46,117 nt of DNA from Alphaproteobacteria bacterium (GTDB taxonomy: Bacteria > Pseudomonadota > Alphaproteobacteria > JAJTHO01 > CANGYM01). Shown piece by piece: positions 22,986 to 30,487 of the stretch (position 1 is its first letter; each line of letters begins with the position of its first letter). A program made the translations under genes and the position numbers. The notes beneath the pieces are model-generated. The model was not told the DNA's origin and made no database searches. It saw only the letters and a program-made list of their open reading frames with translations. The stretch is taken from contig CANGYP010000004.1 in NCBI GenBank assembly GCA_947458235.1, positions 1 through 46,117 on the forward strand. Direction: 5' to 3'.

Positions 22986-24359
22986 TCACTCCTGCCACCA
23001 ACCATAGCTTAGGCCCTTGACCCGTTCAAAATGATCTTTTGGGTTATAGGGTTTTGTTTTTTTGGAAATTGTTCTAATATCTAATGCCCCCATGGCCGCC
23101 AAGAGGGTGTATTCAGCCACCAGTTTTTGGGCTTTGGTTGCGGTGAAACGGCGTTGGGCCCCCAGCAGGTCTTGCTCGGCATCAAGGAAATCTAAGGTGC
23201 TGCGAAAGCCCATATCCAATTCTTCCTGCATCCCTTCGGAGGCCTTCAGGGCCGATGTGACCTCTAACGCTGTGGTTTCTAAATCCAGTGTGGCGGTTTC
23301 CAGATCCCGCCATGCCAGCGTCACATCCCGAATCACATCCCGATAAACACTGTCTTTTTGATAGGACGCCCGTTGACGGTCTTTCTTGGCCTGTCGCGTC
23401 CACGCAGACACCATGCCCCCATCATACAAGGGAATGGTTAAAACCACCTTGGTCTCCGCCCCTTCTCGGCGTTGATCGTCAAAGGAAGGATCCTCTTGAC
23501 GGTAGATTTGGGATTCCACGGACAACTCGGGACGATACCCACTGCTGATGCGATCTACATCGGCATCTTTGGCCTCGATGGTGCGATAGGCCGCCTGCAA
23601 CAAGGGGTTTTTGCCCAAGGCGCGCTCTGTGGCCGCCGCTAAGGTTTTTGGGGTTTTGGGGCTTTTGGGAAAATCCCGCAGCAATCCTGGTAACGTTCCC
23701 ACCATGGCCATGAAATCGGCCCGATGGGCGGCCAGCGTGCGTTCCGCTTGACGCAATGCTGTGCGGGCCCGTGCTGCGCGGGATTTTGACAGGGCAACAT
23801 CCGTCATGGTGACATCATCAGCCTGAAAACGGGCCTCTGTGATGGTAACATTTTCCTCTAAGATGTGTTGATACTCACGATGAAACGTCACAATCTCTTG
23901 CGCTGTCACCACACCCACGTAGGCTTTGATGGTGTCTAGCAATACCTGTTGGGTTTGATGGCGCAGGTTTTCTCGGCCCACCGCAATCTGGGCCAAGGCC
24001 AAATCCATTTCGGCCAATGTCTTCCCCCCGCGATACAGGGGTTGTTTATGTGCAACCCCTAAAGTGTAGGGATCCCGTGCGTCAACCCGATCCCCTTTGT
24101 TATCATCCCCAAACCGTTTATCTACCTTTTCATCCACATAGCCCTTGTCCCCAAAAACCTTAACTGTGGGGCGAAACCCTGAAAGGGCTTTGTTGTAGTC
24201 TTCATCGAGGGCCTCAACCTGCAAACGGGCGGCCTTGAGTTGGGGGTGGGTTTGATAGGCAAGGGTGCAGGCCTCTTCCAAGGTCACAGGCAAAGTCTCC
24301 GCCGCCACAGCCCACGGGGCGCAGCATAAAAATACGGCAAACCAGACTCTGGCTGTCAC
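22986..24359 (-). CDS. tolC: TolC-family outer membrane efflux protein
   Basis: Outer membrane trimeric channel partner of type I secretion or efflux pumps. It has a Sec signal peptide of about 20 residues (VWFAVFLCCAPWAVAA, with cleavage probably after AVAA). The mature start LPVTLEEACTLAYQTHPQLKAA is typical of TolC, and two long coiled-coil repeats follow. The 457 residues match the family. The start is GTG at 24359, with AGGGGGG 5 nt upstream. It follows the RG-rich hypothetical by 25 nt. No inner-membrane pump gene is adjacent, so the partner is unknown. Confidence 0.9.
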   Translation of the reverse strand: MTARVWFAVFLCCAPWAVAAETLPVTLEEACTLAYQTHPQLKAARLQVEALDEDYNKALSGFRPTVKVFGDKGYVDEKVDKRFGDDNKGDRVDARDPYTLGVAHKQPLYRGGKTLAEMDLALAQIAVGRENLRHQTQQVLLDTIKAYVGVVTAQEIVTFHREYQHILEENVTITEARFQADDVTMTDVALSKSRAARARTALRQAERTLAAHRADFMAMVGTLPGLLRDFPKSPKTPKTLAAATERALGKNPLLQAAYRTIEAKDADVDRISSGYRPELSVESQIYRQEDPSFDDQRREGAETKVVLTIPLYDGGMVSAWTRQAKKDRQRASYQKDSVYRDVIRDVTLAWRDLETATLDLETTALEVTSALKASEGMQEELDMGFRSTLDFLDAEQDLLGAQRRFTATKAQKLVAEYTLLAAMGALDIRTISKKTKPYNPKDHFERVKGLSYGWWQE

Positions 24360-24367
24360 ACTACCCC

Positions 24368-24381
24368 CCTAAAGCTTTAGG
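24368..24381. repeat. perfect 14-bp palindrome between hypothetical gene and tolC
   Basis: CCTAAAGCTTTAGG is self-complementary and fills most of the 25-nt gap before tolC. In the transcript it could form a small hairpin next to the tolC ribosome site. It lacks a T-run in the minus direction, so it is not a standard terminator. Confidence 0.4.
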
Positions 24382-24384
24382 AGA

Positions 24385-24882
24385 TTAGTCGAAGCGGCGT
24401 CCTGTGCGCCCCTCGTCACCAAAGGACCGTTTGCGGGGGGCGGCATCCCGATCCCGATCAGGGCGAAAACCACGGGGACGGTCGCCACGATCACGGTCGC
24501 CGCCTTCGCCACCACCAAAACGGGGCTCGCGACGGGGTCGATCATCATCACGACGATCACCTCGGGGGGTAAAATCACGCTTGCCTTCGGCCTCGGGGGT
24601 TAAGCTCAGGCGAAACTTAATACGGCTGGGACCGGGGGCCGCCACCAACGGCACCGAAGGATGGTCCGAAGACATGGACCCCAGAACAATAATTTTGGTT
24701 TTGTCTTCTGCGGGGTCCACCGCCACCGCCAGATCAAAATCGATGGCAGGCAAGGCATCCTTGCTGCCAAAAAGGGAGGCTTTGTTGGGATTGGCCGCGC
24801 GATCCCGACGCACGGATTCAATGGCATCACAAACATCTTTGACAGTTTGCGCAATAAAATCTTTTAAAGGAGGTGTGGCCAT
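24385..24882 (-). CDS. hypothetical protein with Arg/Asp/Gly-rich disordered tail
   Basis: I do not recognise this 165-residue protein with confidence. Residues 1-110 look folded: a helix (LKDFIAQTVKDVCDAIESVR), then beta-like strands IDFDLAVAV, KIIVLGSM and IKFRLSLTP. The helix plus alternating strands recalls the trypsin-co-occurring (trypco2) type of small domain, but that is a guess. Residues 110-165 are a low-complexity tail of Arg, Asp, Gly and Pro, with RGD/RDRD/RGFR-like units typical of disordered nucleic-acid-binding or condensing tails. The tail's antisense frame is open too, a by-product of the repeats. It is first in a minus-strand run with tolC. No clear Shine-Dalgarno is seen. 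Confidence 0.7.
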   Translation of the reverse strand: MATPPLKDFIAQTVKDVCDAIESVRRDRAANPNKASLFGSKDALPAIDFDLAVAVDPAEDKTKIIVLGSMSSDHPSVPLVAAPGPSRIKFRLSLTPEAEGKRDFTPRGDRRDDDRPRREPRFGGGEGGDRDRGDRPRGFRPDRDRDAAPRKRSFGDEGRTGRRFD

Positions 24883-24924
24883 ATGAATATACTTTCAAGT
24901 ATTTTTGAAGAAAAGGCACTATGA
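24883..24924 (+). CDS. possible 13-codon leader peptide before the spermidine operon
   Basis: An ATG at 24883 is preceded by a near-perfect Shine-Dalgarno AAAGGAGG (24866-24873) at 9-nt spacing and opens MNILSSIFEEKAL, ending at TGA 24922. The stop overlaps a 6-bp hairpin, GACAGG/CCTGTC (24923-24939). The Shine-Dalgarno lies in sequence that codes for the N-terminus of the opposite-strand gene, so it may be accidental. No promoter for it is evident. Confidence 0.25.
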   Translation: MNILSSIFEEKAL

Positions 24925-24969
24925 CAGGTTTTGCCTGTCTTTGAAAGCAAAAAAATCAGCTGTATGAGT

Positions 24970-24993
24970 ACAATGGAAATACATTTACATTGT
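24970..24993. promoter_or_regulatory. 24-bp dyad, candidate operator of the spermidine operon
   Basis: ACAATG (24970-24975) and CATTGT (24988-24993) are exact inverted repeats. Between them AAAT (24977-24980) and ATTT (24983-24986) continue the symmetry, so 20 of 24 positions are dyad-symmetric. The right half overlaps the likely -35 of the operon. This geometry fits a repressor site; which regulator binds is unknown. Confidence 0.55.
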
Positions 24994-25011
24994 GAAGGAT
25001 GATGGTATATG
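24984..25011 (+). promoter_or_regulatory. likely promoter of the carboxyspermidine dehydrogenase-nspC operon
   Basis: TTTACA (24984-24989) and TATATG (25006-25011) are separated by 16 nt. This would give a leader of about 48 nt before the ATG at 25067. A second possibility lies upstream, TTGAAA (24941-24946) with TATGAG (24963-24968). In either case the 24-bp dyad sits in or directly after the promoter. Confidence 0.45.
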
Positions 25012-25066
25012 ACTTTAGATTGAAAAGAGACACTACCTATAGGATAACCCATAGAAAGAGATACAC

Positions 25067-26281
25067 ATGACATCCATGAACCGTGTTTTGATCATCGGCG
25101 CAGGGGCGGCCGGATCGGTTGTGGCCAAAAAATGCGCCATGAATATGGATGTTTTTAAGCATATTCACTTGGCCTCTCGCCGTTTGGAAAGCTGCGTAGC
25201 CGTTCAAAAAGAATGCGTATCCCCCATCACTATCTCTGAGGTGGATGCGGACGACACAGCCCAAGTCATTGCCCTGATTGAACAACAAAAGCCCGATTTG
25301 CTGATTAACATGGCCCTGCCCTATCAGGATTTAACCCTGATGGATGCCTGTTTGGCCACGGGCGTGCATTATATGGACACCGCCAACTATGAACCCCGCG
25401 AGGAGGCCAAGTTTGCCTATCACTGGCAGTGGGCCTATCAAGAACGATTCAAAGACAAGGGCCTGATGGCCATTTTGGGCTGCGGTTTTGATCCCGGGGT
25501 GACCAACGTCTTTTGTGCCTACGCCCGCGATCATCTGTTTGATAGCATTGAATTCATTGATATTATTGATTGCAATGATGGCAACCATGGCAAAGCCTTT
25601 GCCACCAATTTCAATCCGGAAATCAATTTACGGGAAGTCACCCAGCGTGGAAAATACTGGAAAAACGGTCAATGGATCGAGGTTGATCCCGTCAGCCTGT
25701 CCCGCATGATTGATTATCCTGAGGTCGGACCCCGAAAATCCTATTTAATCTATCACGAAGAAGAAGAATCCTTGGTGCAAAACATTCCGGGCCTGAAACA
25801 GATCCGTTTCTGGATGACCTTTTCGGATAACTATATCAAACATATGGAGGTCCTTCAGAACGTGGGCCTAACGCGCATTGATCCGGTGATGTATAACGGG
25901 ACGCCTATTGTGCCCATTCAATTTTTGAAACACCTGTTGCCAGCCCCGTCGTCGCTGGCGGAAAACTATACGGGCAAAACCTCCATCGGGTGCGTCATTC
26001 AGGGGCACAAGGACGGAAAGCCCAAAACCATTGTGATTTATAATGTATGCGACCATGCGGCCTCTTTCCGTGAGGTCAAGGCGCAGGCCGTGTCCTACAC
26101 CACAGGCGTCCCCCCCGTTGTTGGGGCCATGATGCTGTTTTCTGGACAATGGCAGGGCAAGGGAGTCTTTAACGTGGAACAACTGCCCGCCAAACCGTTT
26201 TTGGATGAATTGGCACGTCAGGGCCTGCCGTGGCATGTGCGGCAGATTGAGGGGCCCCAGACTTTGGGGCTTTTGCCTTAA
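25067..26281 (+). CDS. carboxynorspermidine/carboxyspermidine dehydrogenase (saccharopine dehydrogenase family)
   Basis: Reductively condenses putrescine or diaminopropane with aspartate semialdehyde to the carboxy-polyamine, the step before decarboxylation to spermidine or norspermidine. The N-terminal Rossmann motif is GAGAAG (residues 11-16) in RVLIIGAGAAGSVVAKK. The length of 404 residues and the segments LINMALPYQDLTLMDACL and LGCGFDPGVTNVF are typical of the family. The adjacent nspC, joined by a 1-nt overlap (TAATG), supports this substrate over saccharopine. AGAGAT precedes the ATG at 25067. Spermidine is the likely product in an alphaproteobacterium. Confidence 0.9.
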   Translation: MTSMNRVLIIGAGAAGSVVAKKCAMNMDVFKHIHLASRRLESCVAVQKECVSPITISEVDADDTAQVIALIEQQKPDLLINMALPYQDLTLMDACLATGVHYMDTANYEPREEAKFAYHWQWAYQERFKDKGLMAILGCGFDPGVTNVFCAYARDHLFDSIEFIDIIDCNDGNHGKAFATNFNPEINLREVTQRGKYWKNGQWIEVDPVSLSRMIDYPEVGPRKSYLIYHEEEESLVQNIPGLKQIRFWMTFSDNYIKHMEVLQNVGLTRIDPVMYNGTPIVPIQFLKHLLPAPSSLAENYTGKTSIGCVIQGHKDGKPKTIVIYNVCDHAASFREVKAQAVSYTTGVPPVVGAMMLFSGQWQGKGVFNVEQLPAKPFLDELARQGLPWHVRQIEGPQTLGLLP

Positions 26282-27417
26282 TGCCTGCCAAGCCTTGGTA
26301 TACATCCATCAATACGCCCGCTTATGTTGCCGATATCGCGGCCCTCAGGCGGAATCTGGATCGCATTGCCACGCTCAAGGACAAAACAGGCTGTCAGGTT
26401 TTGCTCGCCACCAAGGCCTTTGCCCGTGTGGATCTGTTCCCCCTGATGGCCGAGGTTCTGGATGGCACAACGGCCAGCGGCCTTTACGAGGCGCGGTTGG
26501 GCTATGAAACTTTCGGCAAACAGGTCCATGTTTATGCACCAGCCTTCAGAGATCAGGATATGCTAGACATCCTGCGCTATGCGGATCATATCTATTTTAA
26601 TGCACCTGCCCAGTTGAATCATTTTCGCCACACAATCGGGGCTGATAAACACATCGGCCTGCGGGTCAATCCGGGGTATGGCCTCAGCACCGTGGGGGGG
26701 GATCTTTACAATCCCTGCGCCCCCCATTCCCGTTTTGGCACACTGGCAGACCAGCTGGGCGATGTGGATTGGGATGGGGTGGCTATTTTTCATGTGCACG
26801 CCCTGTGTGAATCCCTTCATGATGGATCTTTGGGGTTAATCCAGCATGTTTCTAAAGCCTTTGCCCCCTATCTGAAATCCGTCAAAACAGTCAATTTCGG
26901 CGGGGGACATCTTTTGAATCATCCTGACTATGATCTTTCTGCCCTTGGGGATGCCCTCAACCGTTTTCAGGATCAACACGGGGTGTCTGTGATTTTAGAA
27001 CCCGGGGGCGGGATTGTCTACAACGGCGGCTATCTGGTGGCCACGGTGTTGGACATTCATCATAATGGGATGCCCATTGCCATTTTGGATGCCTCGGCCA
27101 GTTGCCACCATCCCGACGTGATCGAGGCTGGCTATCGCGCCCCCGTCATCGGGGCGGGCCAAGCTGGTGAACATCCCTATGATTATATCTTGGCAGGCAA
27201 CACCTGTATGACAGGGGATATTTTTGGAACATACAGCTTTCCTGAACCTTTGAAGCAGGGGGATGCTCTTCTGTTCGGGGATGCACTGCATTATACCTTT
27301 GTCAAAAGCACAGTGTTTAACGGCACCCCCCTGCCCGATTTTGGAACCCTGCACGCAAACGGGGTTTACGAGGTTGTGAAACGCTTTGACGACAAAGTCT
27401 TTCGGGGGCGACTGTGA
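26281..27417 (+). CDS. nspC: carboxynorspermidine/carboxyspermidine decarboxylase
   Basis: PLP-dependent alanine-racemase-fold decarboxylase that removes the carboxyl group to release spermidine or norspermidine. The PLP lysine is Lys45 in LLATKAFARV. The C-terminal half has ILEPGGGIVYNGGYLV and the catalytic cysteine region GNTCMTGDIFGTY. The 378 residues agree with NspC. Its ATG shares one base with the dehydrogenase stop, so the two are coupled. Its end is convergent with sbtB. No other polyamine gene, such as speC or an aspartate kinase, is in view. Confidence 0.93.
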   Translation: MPAKPWYTSINTPAYVADIAALRRNLDRIATLKDKTGCQVLLATKAFARVDLFPLMAEVLDGTTASGLYEARLGYETFGKQVHVYAPAFRDQDMLDILRYADHIYFNAPAQLNHFRHTIGADKHIGLRVNPGYGLSTVGGDLYNPCAPHSRFGTLADQLGDVDWDGVAIFHVHALCESLHDGSLGLIQHVSKAFAPYLKSVKTVNFGGGHLLNHPDYDLSALGDALNRFQDQHGVSVILEPGGGIVYNGGYLVATVLDIHHNGMPIAILDASASCHHPDVIEAGYRAPVIGAGQAGEHPYDYILAGNTCMTGDIFGTYSFPEPLKQGDALLFGDALHYTFVKSTVFNGTPLPDFGTLHANGVYEVVKRFDDKVFRGRL

Positions 27418-27476
27418 CAGCCTCTGTATTGTTCATGAATTCATGATTTATGGTCAGGTTTTGACGTGACGGAGTC

Positions 27477-27782
27477 TTAAAATTTCGACGGCCGAAACAC
27501 CATGACATCGCTGACGGTGCAGATGGCCTGATGCTTGTCCAAAAAGGGCGGCAGGATGGTTTCCAAAACGGATAGCTTGGCGGCATCCAAAATGGACAGA
27601 ATCACAACCATTTGGCCCACATCGGCAATCAGCCCCTCCCCCCGCCATGCGCCTTCGGGGCCTTCGCCAGACAGGGCGGGCAAAATGGTGTATCCCGTGA
27701 CGCCGTGGGTTGCCAGCAGTTTCAGAACCTTGTCCTGTAGGGCCCCATCCACGATAATTTCCAGACGTTTTTTGGGGGTCAT
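27477..27782 (-). CDS. sbtB: PII-like protein, SbtB type
   Basis: Small ferredoxin-like PII-superfamily protein (101 aa) predicted to bind adenine nucleotides and control the neighbouring bicarbonate transporter. PII-like blocks are RLEIIVDGALQDKVLKLL, HGVTGYTILPALSGEG and the second half MVVILSILDAAKLSVLETIL. The C-terminal CGPxxC redox loop known in cyanobacterial SbtB is absent. The ATG at 27782 overlaps the sbtA stop by 4 nt. A frame from 27821 exists, but it adds residues unlike the family. Pairing with SbtA is the main basis for the name. Confidence 0.8.
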   Translation of the reverse strand: MTPKKRLEIIVDGALQDKVLKLLATHGVTGYTILPALSGEGPEGAWRGEGLIADVGQMVVILSILDAAKLSVLETILPPFLDKHQAICTVSDVMVFRPSKF

Positions 27783-28747
27783 TGGGATCCTCCAGTGAAG
27801 GCTTGGGCAAGGGCAATCCAAAGGGGAATGCCGACGATCAGATTAAAAGGAAACGTAATCCCCATGGCCAGCGTCAGGGAAATGGCGGGCTTGGCCTGTG
27901 GCAGAGCCAAACGCATGGCCGCAGGGGCGGCAATATAGGACGCACTGGCGGCGCACACCATCAACAGAGCAGCATTCCCCGCACTTAGGGACAGCACAGC
28001 CGCCAAGCCCCCTGCCATCAAGGCCCCCAGAAAAGGCATATACAGCCCAAAGGCCAGCAAACTGCCCCGCAGCAGGTGGCGGCTTTCCATCAAGCCCCGT
28101 CCAGCCACGAGGCCCATATCCAGCAAAAACAGACACAAAACCCCTTTAAACGGGGACACAACAAAGGATTCCAAGGTGTTCATGCCCTCTTGGCCCGTGA
28201 TCATGCCGATAAAAAAGGCCCCCGCCAGCAACACCACCGATCCGTTGGCCAGAATGTGGTGCCACGGCGTGGCCTCTGTTTCTGGATCATAGCGTGAGGC
28301 TAGACGCAGGGCCGTAAAAATGGCGGGGGCCTCCATCAGCGCGGCCACGGCAATCATATAGCCTTCAAAGGGAATGCCAGCGGTTTTCAGGGCTTGGGTC
28401 GCGGCAATAAAGGTGACAATACTGATGGATCCATAATGGCCCGCGATGGAGGCCGTATCCGCGGCTGGCAGTGTTGTGGTTTTGCGCAGCGCAAAAAAGG
28501 CAACAAACGGCATACATAAACTTAGCAGGAATCCTGCAAGTCCTGTCCACGCCAAATCGGGGGTGAATCCAGCGGTGCTGACTTGAACGCCCCCTTTAAA
28601 GCCAATGGCCAGCATCAAATAAAGCGACATACCCTTGGCAATGGCCGAGGGCACGGACAAATCCGATTTCATAAAAGCTGCACCCAATCCCAGCACAAAA
28701 AACAGGATCATGGGCGAAAGGAGCGTTTGCAGGGCAAGGTCCATCAT
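27779..28747 (-). CDS. sbtA: SbtA-type sodium-dependent bicarbonate transporter
   Basis: Inner-membrane permease of about ten helices in two inverted repeats, belonging to the family whose cyanobacterial member couples sodium to bicarbonate uptake. Characteristic stretches are LYLMLAIGFKGGVQV, the SIAGHYGSISIVTFIAA motif in the first half, and LDMGLVAGRGL in the second. The length of 322 residues is right. The start at 28747 (a second ATG follows) overlaps the upstream gene's stop by 4 nt, and its own stop overlaps sbtB by 4 nt. In a heterotroph it may feed carboxylases; that role is inferred. Confidence 0.88.
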   Translation of the reverse strand: MMDLALQTLLSPMILFFVLGLGAAFMKSDLSVPSAIAKGMSLYLMLAIGFKGGVQVSTAGFTPDLAWTGLAGFLLSLCMPFVAFFALRKTTTLPAADTASIAGHYGSISIVTFIAATQALKTAGIPFEGYMIAVAALMEAPAIFTALRLASRYDPETEATPWHHILANGSVVLLAGAFFIGMITGQEGMNTLESFVVSPFKGVLCLFLLDMGLVAGRGLMESRHLLRGSLLAFGLYMPFLGALMAGGLAAVLSLSAGNAALLMVCAASASYIAAPAAMRLALPQAKPAISLTLAMGITFPFNLIVGIPLWIALAQAFTGGSQ

Positions 28748-29043
28748 GACACAACAGGCCTGTTACGGGTAAAGTTGGCGGCGTAGGATTTCGGGCGCAT
28801 GGTGCGCGGATGATCGGGCAATACGGTATAGGTCCAGCCGCGCTGCTGGGCGTAGTGGATGGCATCCTCTGGGGTGTCGAAAAACAGGGTGATTTGCTCG
28901 GTGGTGTCCCCCGTGCTGATCCATCCCATCAGGGCGTTGGGGGTTTTGGGGGTTTGGGCATGGGGGTGAAGGCACCACGCCCCCCTTCCCCCTTGGCCAG
29001 ATTGCATAGCGTTTTTGGTGGGCTTGAAAATGCGAACGTGCAT
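28744..29043 (-). CDS. NDUFS4-like NADH dehydrogenase (complex I) accessory subunit
   Basis: Short protein (99 aa) of the ETC complex I subunit conserved-region family, homologous to mitochondrial NDUFS4 (18 kDa subunit). The N-terminus VRIFKPTKNAMQSGQGG, the MGWISTGDT block and the C-terminal PKSYAANF are diagnostic. It is an alphaproteobacterial accessory subunit thought to stabilise the NADH-binding arm. The stop (TGA 28746-28744) overlaps the sbtA start. carD lies 16 nt upstream. No nuo genes are in the window. Confidence 0.9.
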   Translation of the reverse strand: MHVRIFKPTKNAMQSGQGGRGAWCLHPHAQTPKTPNALMGWISTGDTTEQITLFFDTPEDAIHYAQQRGWTYTVLPDHPRTMRPKSYAANFTRNRPVVS

Positions 29044-29059
29044 GGGGGGTCCTTTGAGG

Positions 29060-29554
29060 TTAGGCGGCGTTCATCATTTCCTCTAATTTCATGGCCGCCA
29101 TATCTTCGTCGATGTTTTCAACGGCGGCCAATTCACGGGCCAAGCGATCCAGCGCGGTGCGGTAAATCTGGCGTTCGCTGTAGGATTGATCGGGCTGCTG
29201 GGAATTTTTGTACAGGTCCCGAACGACCTCGGCAATGGCGGAAGGATCGCCAGAGTTGATTTTCATTTCGTATTCCTGCGCCCGACGCGACCACATGGTT
29301 TTTTTCACGCGGGAGCGGCCTTTGAGTTTTTTCAGGGCCAAATTCATTTTATCCTCGGTGCAGACGGGGCGCAGGCCAGAGCTTTCGAGGCGGTGCATGG
29401 GCAAACGTAGCACCATGCGATCATGAGTAAAGTGAATCACGATTAAATCCACGGAGGTTCCCGCCACCTGTTGCTTTTCAATGCCCTTGACTTGTCCCAC
29501 ACCGTGGGTGGGGTAAACAACGTAATCACCGTTTTTGTAGTGTGCCTGAGCCAT
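29060..29554 (-). CDS. carD: CarD/CdnL-family transcriptional regulator
   Basis: RNA-polymerase-binding protein that stabilises open complexes, notably at rRNA promoters. The N-terminal Tudor-like RNAP-interaction domain starts with FKNGD-like HYKNGDYVVYPTHGVGQVKG. The C-terminal helical DNA-binding domain follows from about residue 70. At 164 residues it is typical. GAGGA precedes the ATG by about 7 nt. fdxA lies directly upstream, a pairing seen in many alphaproteobacteria. Confidence 0.95.
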   Translation of the reverse strand: MAQAHYKNGDYVVYPTHGVGQVKGIEKQQVAGTSVDLIVIHFTHDRMVLRLPMHRLESSGLRPVCTEDKMNLALKKLKGRSRVKKTMWSRRAQEYEMKINSGDPSAIAEVVRDLYKNSQQPDQSYSERQIYRTALDRLARELAAVENIDEDMAAMKLEEMMNAA

Positions 29555-29651
29555 AGTCTGTCCTCATGGTTTGTTGTTATGATTGTGAACGAAGAAAAAA
29601 CATTTGTCTGTGCGAAATGTTACATCCTGCAAAGAGGAATCCGTGCTTGGC

Positions 29652-29990
29652 TTATGACCCCTCCCCTGCCCCTTCGTCAAAGTGGTTTTGGAATTTATCG
29701 GGGATGCCTTTCCACATGTCGGCATCATCGGGGCGCTCGCCCTTTTGCGTGATGGTGGGCCATTGGGCGGCGTAGGTTCGGTTCAGCTCCAGCCACGCTT
29801 CGGCTCTGTCGTCGGTGTCGGGCAAAATGGCCTCGGCGGGGCATTCAGGCTCGCACACGCCGCAGTCGATGCATTCTTCGGGATCAATGACCAGCATGTT
29901 GATGCCTTCGTGAAAACAATCCACGGGGCAAACGTCCACACAGTCCATGTATTTACAGCGAATACAGTCCTCAGTGACTACAAACGTCAT
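29652..29990 (-). CDS. fdxA: 7Fe ferredoxin FdxA
   Basis: Small electron carrier (112 aa) with one 3Fe-4S and one 4Fe-4S cluster. The first cluster segment is [18 protein letters not shown] and the second is [18 protein letters not shown]-terminal extension after the second cluster is standard for FdxA. AAAGG lies before the ATG at 29990. It probably supplies low-potential electrons to unknown partners. It lies between the TerB-like gene and carD. Confidence 0.95.
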
Positions 29991-30025
29991 ATGTTTTGCC
30001 TTTCTTTATATCATTTATCATGCGT

Positions 30026-30487
30026 TCAAGACGGTTTGTCCAGCCCCGACATAACCAGAACGCTCTGGCGGATTTCGGCGGAGCGTTTATCAGACACATA
30101 TAACATGCCCGCAATTTTGCGCATCAGGGTGGACTCATGGTTGTCAATATGATTGTTGACGCACACAATCTGCCACAGCATTTCTATGATGCCTTCGCGC
30201 CCGCGTTCGTCCAGATGATCTTTCAGAACTTTGGTGGCTTTGTAGAAGTGATCGCGGCCGTCCAGACGTTCCTCGGCTTGTTGAATCAACACGTGGGCCT
30301 CGGCCAGTGTGCAGCCGAATTTTTGGGACAACAAATCCACAATGGTTTTCATTTCTACGGCATCCAGCCCCTCGTCTCGCATGGACAATTCCAGCAAGAT
30401 CATGGCGGTGGCAAGGGGAATGTCGTTGCGATCAATGCTCTGGGACGATCCCCCAAACAGTTCCTTCAGCCGATCCAACACAGACAT
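30026..30487 (-). CDS. TerB-family protein
   Basis: All-helical protein (153 aa) of the TerB/DjlA-type helical domain family. Visible family features are LATAMILLELSMRDEGLDAVE and a C-terminal metal-site-like stretch with HESTLMRKIAGMLYVSD. Stand-alone TerB proteins are common in alphaproteobacteria and usually have no link to tellurite; the function is not known. AAGGGTG lies about 10 nt upstream of the ATG. No ter operon is nearby. Confidence 0.85.
   Translation of the reverse strand: MSVLDRLKELFGGSSQSIDRNDIPLATAMILLELSMRDEGLDAVEMKTIVDLLSQKFGCTLAEAHVLIQQAEERLDGRDHFYKATKVLKDHLDERGREGIIEMLWQIVCVNNHIDNHESTLMRKIAGMLYVSDKRSAEIRQSVLVMSGLDKPS

Follow-up and report, generated by a model that had tools for sequence, protein, structure and literature searches.

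An sbtA-sbtB gene pair chained to an NDUFS4 gene in one alphaproteobacterial genus: probably a positional linkage

Why should a gene for an accessory subunit of respiratory complex I run directly into genes for a putative bicarbonate transporter and its PII-like regulator? The question is raised by a locus in the window, i.e., the whole stretch of 46,117 nucleotides analysed here (contig CANGYP010000004.1, assembly GCA_947458235.1), which belongs to an alphaproteobacterial genome of 1.4 Mb that is about 95% complete. A preliminary description had read three overlapping genes at this locus and proposed that bicarbonate uptake is tuned to respiration, possibly with sodium as the common factor. 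The features on which the following discussion is built are:

29652 to 29990, minus strand: ferredoxin gene (fdxA-like; PF11953, PF00037), 97 nt upstream of carD
29060 to 29554, minus strand: carD transcription regulator gene, the probable head of the run (PF21095/PF02559; same order in the sister MAG)
28744 to 29043, minus strand: NDUFS4-type accessory subunit of respiratory complex I (99 aa; PF04800, E 2.1e-31)
28744 to 28747, minus strand: ATGA overlap of the NDUFS4 stop and the sbtA start (seen in the sequence; kept in the sister MAG)
27779 to 28747, minus strand: SbtA-family (Sbt_1) transporter with an elevator-type fold (322 aa; PF05982, E 3e-104)
27789 to 27793, minus strand: GGAGG Shine-Dalgarno motif of sbtB (seen in the sequence; same in both species)
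27779 to 27782, minus strand: ATGA overlap of the sbtA stop and the sbtB start (seen in the sequence; kept in the sister MAG)
27477 to 27782, minus strand: PII-like regulator of the SbtB/CPII type (101 aa; PF00543, E 6e-12)

The locus is real and its anatomy had been read well. The three Pfam families confirm the gene identities at these coordinates, ATGA stands at both junctions, and the transporter gene is indeed paired with that of a PII-like regulator, which directly adjoins it with a 4-nt overlap. The run is longer than had been described, as the end of carD lies 16 nt in front of NDUFS4, and the order on the minus strand is carD, NDUFS4, sbtA, and sbtB, head to tail. The same order and both overlaps are present in the sister MAG G001 (CANGYM010000016.1, isolate RE-18aug17-138; loci L032/L039), so the overlaps are not sequencing accidents. 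Overlaps of 4 nt are as such common in the genome and nothing unusual: in a rough ORF-based count over about 437 kb, an ATGA overlap is possible in 10% and any start with a 4-nt overlap in 16% of 281 co-directional adjacent ORF pairs. No Shine-Dalgarno sequence is visible for sbtA, which fits translational coupling, and sbtA may thus rely on the translation of NDUFS4; sbtB has its own GGAGG 6 nt upstream, conserved between the two species. Scans of positions 27300 to 30200 predicted three terminators (4.1 expected) and four promoters (2.0 +/- 1.5 expected).

Two further differences between the species were observed. NDUFS4 changes faster than its neighbours (84% amino acid identity), with 16 of 34 codon changes altering the residue, compared with 12 of 116 in sbtA. 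Downstream of sbtB, about 4.6 kb separate the gene from lon in the window (positions 22986 to 27417), whereas lon follows about 105 bp after sbtB in the sister MAG. This stretch holds an outer-membrane TolC-like gene, two genes of the saccharopine dehydrogenase and decarboxylase types that probably make up a polyamine pair, and, at positions 24385 to 24882, a gene for an RGG/RDR-rich protein of 165 aa, which matches no Pfam family and whose tail is rich in Arg, Asp, and Gly.

The three-gene order does not extend beyond the genus. In a survey of 142 genomes, nearly all from different alphaproteobacterial families, Sbt_1 and NDUFS4 are both present in 30, and the two genes are neighbours in only two of these, namely the window genome and its sister; in G002 and G003, the remaining two genomes available for the order, they lie on different contigs. 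The possibility that the order is unique to one genome is hence literally excluded by the sister species, and at the level of the genus it holds. A second set comprised 80 named sbtA loci, chosen as the best relatives from an alignment led by the window SbtA. A PII-like gene accompanies sbtA in 68 of them, almost always as the next gene downstream (position +1 in 64 loci); among the loci without one, some are truncated at the end of a contig. NDUFS4 lies near sbtA in the sister MAG only and in none of the 79 other loci. Only sbtA-sbtB is therefore a lasting pair, with NDUFS4 as its neighbour in a single, presumably freshwater genus.

NDUFS4 itself is a conventional member of its family. It scores 108 bits against PF04800 (cut-off 31.9), its phmmer matches include many mitochondrial NDUFS4 chains as well as the Paracoccus denitrificans complex I subunit (8qby chain Q; full-length match, E 1.4e-18), and the 51K (NuoF) subunit of complex I was found in all four genomes of the order. 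What sets it apart from the Paracoccus gene is the attachment of bicarbonate genes, which is seen in this genus alone. Across NDUFS4 loci from 44 genomes, there is no partner gene downstream that is seen repeatedly outside the genus (even the commonest cluster of neighbours occurs at only 10 loci), and in several small genomes NDUFS4 directly adjoins unrelated genes or overlaps with them. In G087 (locus L152), for example, it overlaps an unrelated ORF of 163 aa by 4 nt (gap -4), and such overlaps thus arise with unrelated partners.

The phylogenies of the two neighbours are discordant. The SbtA tree places the window copy in a starred branch of 27 rows, mostly SbtB-linked copies of large-genome taxa, where it nests with Hyphomicrobium, Rhodobacterales, and others, and puts G002 and G003 into a starred clade of SbtA without SbtB. 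Forcing the four SbtA proteins of the order into one clade costs 95 log-likelihood units and is rejected (AU p 7.8e-7). In the NDUFS4 tree the order groups together, albeit with weak support (67/78). SbtA is, judged from these trees, phylogenetically foreign to its host order and NDUFS4 is not. In addition, the PII-like family profile detects a protein in the window genome and G001, and neither an SbtB-linked copy nor an SbtB relict in G002 and G003, which carry SbtA (loci L010 and L014) without any detectable SbtB. Because SbtA does not group with its own order and the relatives are devoid of SbtB, the most likely history is that the pair was acquired, or else differentially retained, and came to sit behind the resident NDUFS4, the transfer presumably running into this genus.

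Alternatively, sbtA-sbtB could be ancestral in the order, with an old duplication giving rise to two SbtA types and this genus having kept the SbtB-linked one, without any transfer. Some genomes do contain two Sbt_1 genes (G093 and G135), and ancient duplication followed by differential loss could thus mimic transfer. We regard this history as unlikely, though with some weight left to it, given that G002 and G003 show no trace of the linked copy and that the window copy sits within the Hyphomicrobium/Rhodobacterales clade.

Turning to the transporter, family membership is clear. The window SbtA scores 349 bits against PF05982 (cut-off 27; positions 1 to 308), and a search of NCBIfam yielded no named family, with PG0541 below its cut-off. 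Its predicted model (pLDDT 89) has the 5+5 transmembrane elevator fold with a broken TM4/TM9 crossover (breaks near residues 105-109 and 268-272) and superimposes on Synechocystis SbtA (8zor/7cye) with TM scores of 0.86 to 0.88 (best for 8zor, 0.88), at a sequence identity of only 26-27%. The SbtA-SbtB systems of Synechocystis and Cyanobium (TC 2.A.83; PF05982 with a PII-like SbtB) are alike in fold, in the region of the crossover motif, and in the adjacency of the transporter and regulator genes. They differ in the substrate pocket. In Synechocystis SbtA, HCO3- was docked to S114, Y140, S324, and S327, and the replacement of each by Ala lowers transport to 10-40% (PMC8352866). According to the alignment, S114 and S324 are kept (S109 and S270), whereas Y140 and S327 are replaced by Ala (A135 and A273) and D325 by Tyr; the published Na+ site (PMC8352866) maps to main-chain oxygens at the conserved crossover. 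As the four-residue pocket of the cyanobacterial high-affinity type (SbtA1) is incomplete, the window transporter, by sequence, does not qualify as SbtA1. An SbtA2 with SbtB2 has been described in marine Synechococcus (PMC13249358).

Comparison of the window gene (27779-28747) with loci L027, L028, L181, and L182 revealed two Sbt_1 pocket signatures. Proteobacterial copies mostly carry YGSS(A/L/V)E(A/S/C)SSYA, and the window reads YGSSAEASSYA; the other signature, FGASYDASSDS, is that of SbtA1 and occurs exactly in two divergent alphaproteobacterial and two cyanobacterial plasmid copies. The altered pocket is essentially common to 47 of 49 rows, with A, L, V, or M at position 135. The pocket residues by themselves are no proof that bicarbonate is the substrate, and the case for it comes from gene context. 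The proteobacterial sbtA-sbtB pairs (Hyphomicrobium, Roseibium, Thalassospira, and Rhodobacterales) share about 54-61% SbtA identity, the pocket signature, and the directly downstream PII-like gene with the window, and differ in that NDUFS4 is absent in front and a gene for a beta-carbonic anhydrase (beta-CA) is often nearby. The latter lies within 5 kb of sbtA in 24 (by cluster) to 35 (by phmmer) of the 80 loci, counts that are not independent, as the loci are related. In Cereibacter, an SbtA copy that is 57% identical and has identical pocket residues adjoins a LysR regulator gene and form I RuBisCO genes.

The host itself presents a different setting. A search of the order's four genomes for RuBisCO and for the alpha and beta classes of CA gave no match in any of them, the window genome being about 95% complete. 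Judged by this lack of RuBisCO and by the name of the sister MAG, which we read as that of a reservoir sample, the host would be a freshwater heterotroph. A bicarbonate importer that feeds ordinary carboxylations would suit such a host. Freshwater SAR11 heterotrophs with an Sbt permease (PMC10030771) and the MpsAB transporter of S. aureus, which stands in place of a CA (PMC8567241), are precedents. It was also considered whether SbtA and beta-CA exclude each other, an idea that was abandoned because there is no clear anticorrelation over the 142 genomes (beta-CA is present in 17 of 32 SbtA-positive and 69 of 110 SbtA-negative genomes). PEP carboxylase as the HCO3- consumer was likewise discarded, as the genome itself has no match to it and the sister shows just weak fragments, and no particular carboxylase is therefore named.

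The partner protein is closest to CPII of Thiomonas intermedia (5d4n, 5d4o) among solved structures, in sequence (E 1.5e-12) as well as in fold (TM 0.84), followed by cyanobacterial SbtB (E 0.002, TM about 0.7). Its predicted model (pLDDT 84) adopts the ferredoxin-like PII fold, with a T-loop (residues 47-55) of low confidence that is presumably flexible. Thiomonas CPII was solved with ADP, AMP, and bicarbonate; by analogy, the window protein may sense adenylates and bicarbonate and gate the transporter through its T-loop. CPII is carboxysome-associated, whereas RuBisCO is undetected in the window genome, which also sets the host apart from Synechocystis and Cyanobium. A further difference from these cyanobacteria is the lack of the C-terminal CGPxGC R-loop of the redox-switch SbtB subtype (the protein ends in RPSKF), a motif that is present in only some SbtB homologs (PMC8352866).

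With the substrate taken from gene context, SbtA probably imports bicarbonate for ordinary carboxylations, presumably in an Na+-dependent manner, and is gated by a CPII-type adenylate sensor. Should the transporter move another small anion, the PII-like protein would gate that instead. The distinct pocket signature, the two Ala replacements, and the low identity to Synechocystis SbtA speak for this. Yet relatives with the same signature adjoin RuBisCO or beta-CA genes, the CPII-like partner has its nearest likeness in a PII protein solved with bicarbonate, and HCO3--active SbtA-family transporters have been reported from autotrophic Proteobacteria (PMC10880623; PMC12628692), making another substrate improbable.

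The proposal that bicarbonate uptake is tuned to respiration through NDUFS4 is not supported, given the confinement of the three-gene order to one genus, the unrelated NDUFS4 contexts elsewhere, and the foreign origin suggested for SbtA but not for NDUFS4. As a functional module, the three genes would match bicarbonate uptake to complex I activity or the respiratory nucleotide state, with NDUFS4 being more than a neighbour. Such a module would be in keeping with the tight packing, in which both species have retained the two 4-nt overlaps, and with the fact that PII-like proteins read adenylates, which are set by respiration. Nevertheless, it is very improbable, since NDUFS4 has no stable partner anywhere in the 44 genomes, overlaps unrelated genes as in L152, and is not required for adenylate sensing by SbtB. 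Sodium as the common factor was dropped as well, as the genomes of the order yielded no Na+-pumping NQR above the cut-off and complex I of the alphaproteobacterium Paracoccus is a proton pump (PMC11522691). That NDUFS4, SbtA, and the PII-like sensor form one co-translated unit in this genus, through which the level of complex I and the adenylate state would set the import of bicarbonate, is scarcely credible.

The locus as a whole is thus, in our judgement, likely to represent an sbtA-sbtB bicarbonate pair behind a resident carD-NDUFS4, with the adjacency being positional. A self-contained pair of the proteobacterial type would have come to lie there in the ancestor of the genus and would now probably be read together with carD and NDUFS4. 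SbtA would import bicarbonate with Na+, and the CPII/SbtB-type protein, sensing adenine nucleotides and perhaps bicarbonate through its flexible T-loop, would plug or release it. A freshwater heterotroph with a small genome would thereby gain HCO3- for its ordinary carboxylases, while NDUFS4 would keep its usual complex I job, sharing a transcript and translational coupling with the pair and not a function.

The pair is of a known kind in bicarbonate uptake, and what is new is its genus-specific position, which illustrates that a tight run of overlapping genes can be a lineage-specific positional linkage. Two Sbt_1 pocket signatures can now be told apart and merit a substrate assay. The locus also adds a putative bicarbonate importer under PII control, found in a bacterium with a small genome that is seemingly devoid of RuBisCO and of alpha- and beta-CA, and thereby raises the question of whether a proteobacterial SbtA can replace carbonic anhydrase as a source of bicarbonate for biosynthesis.
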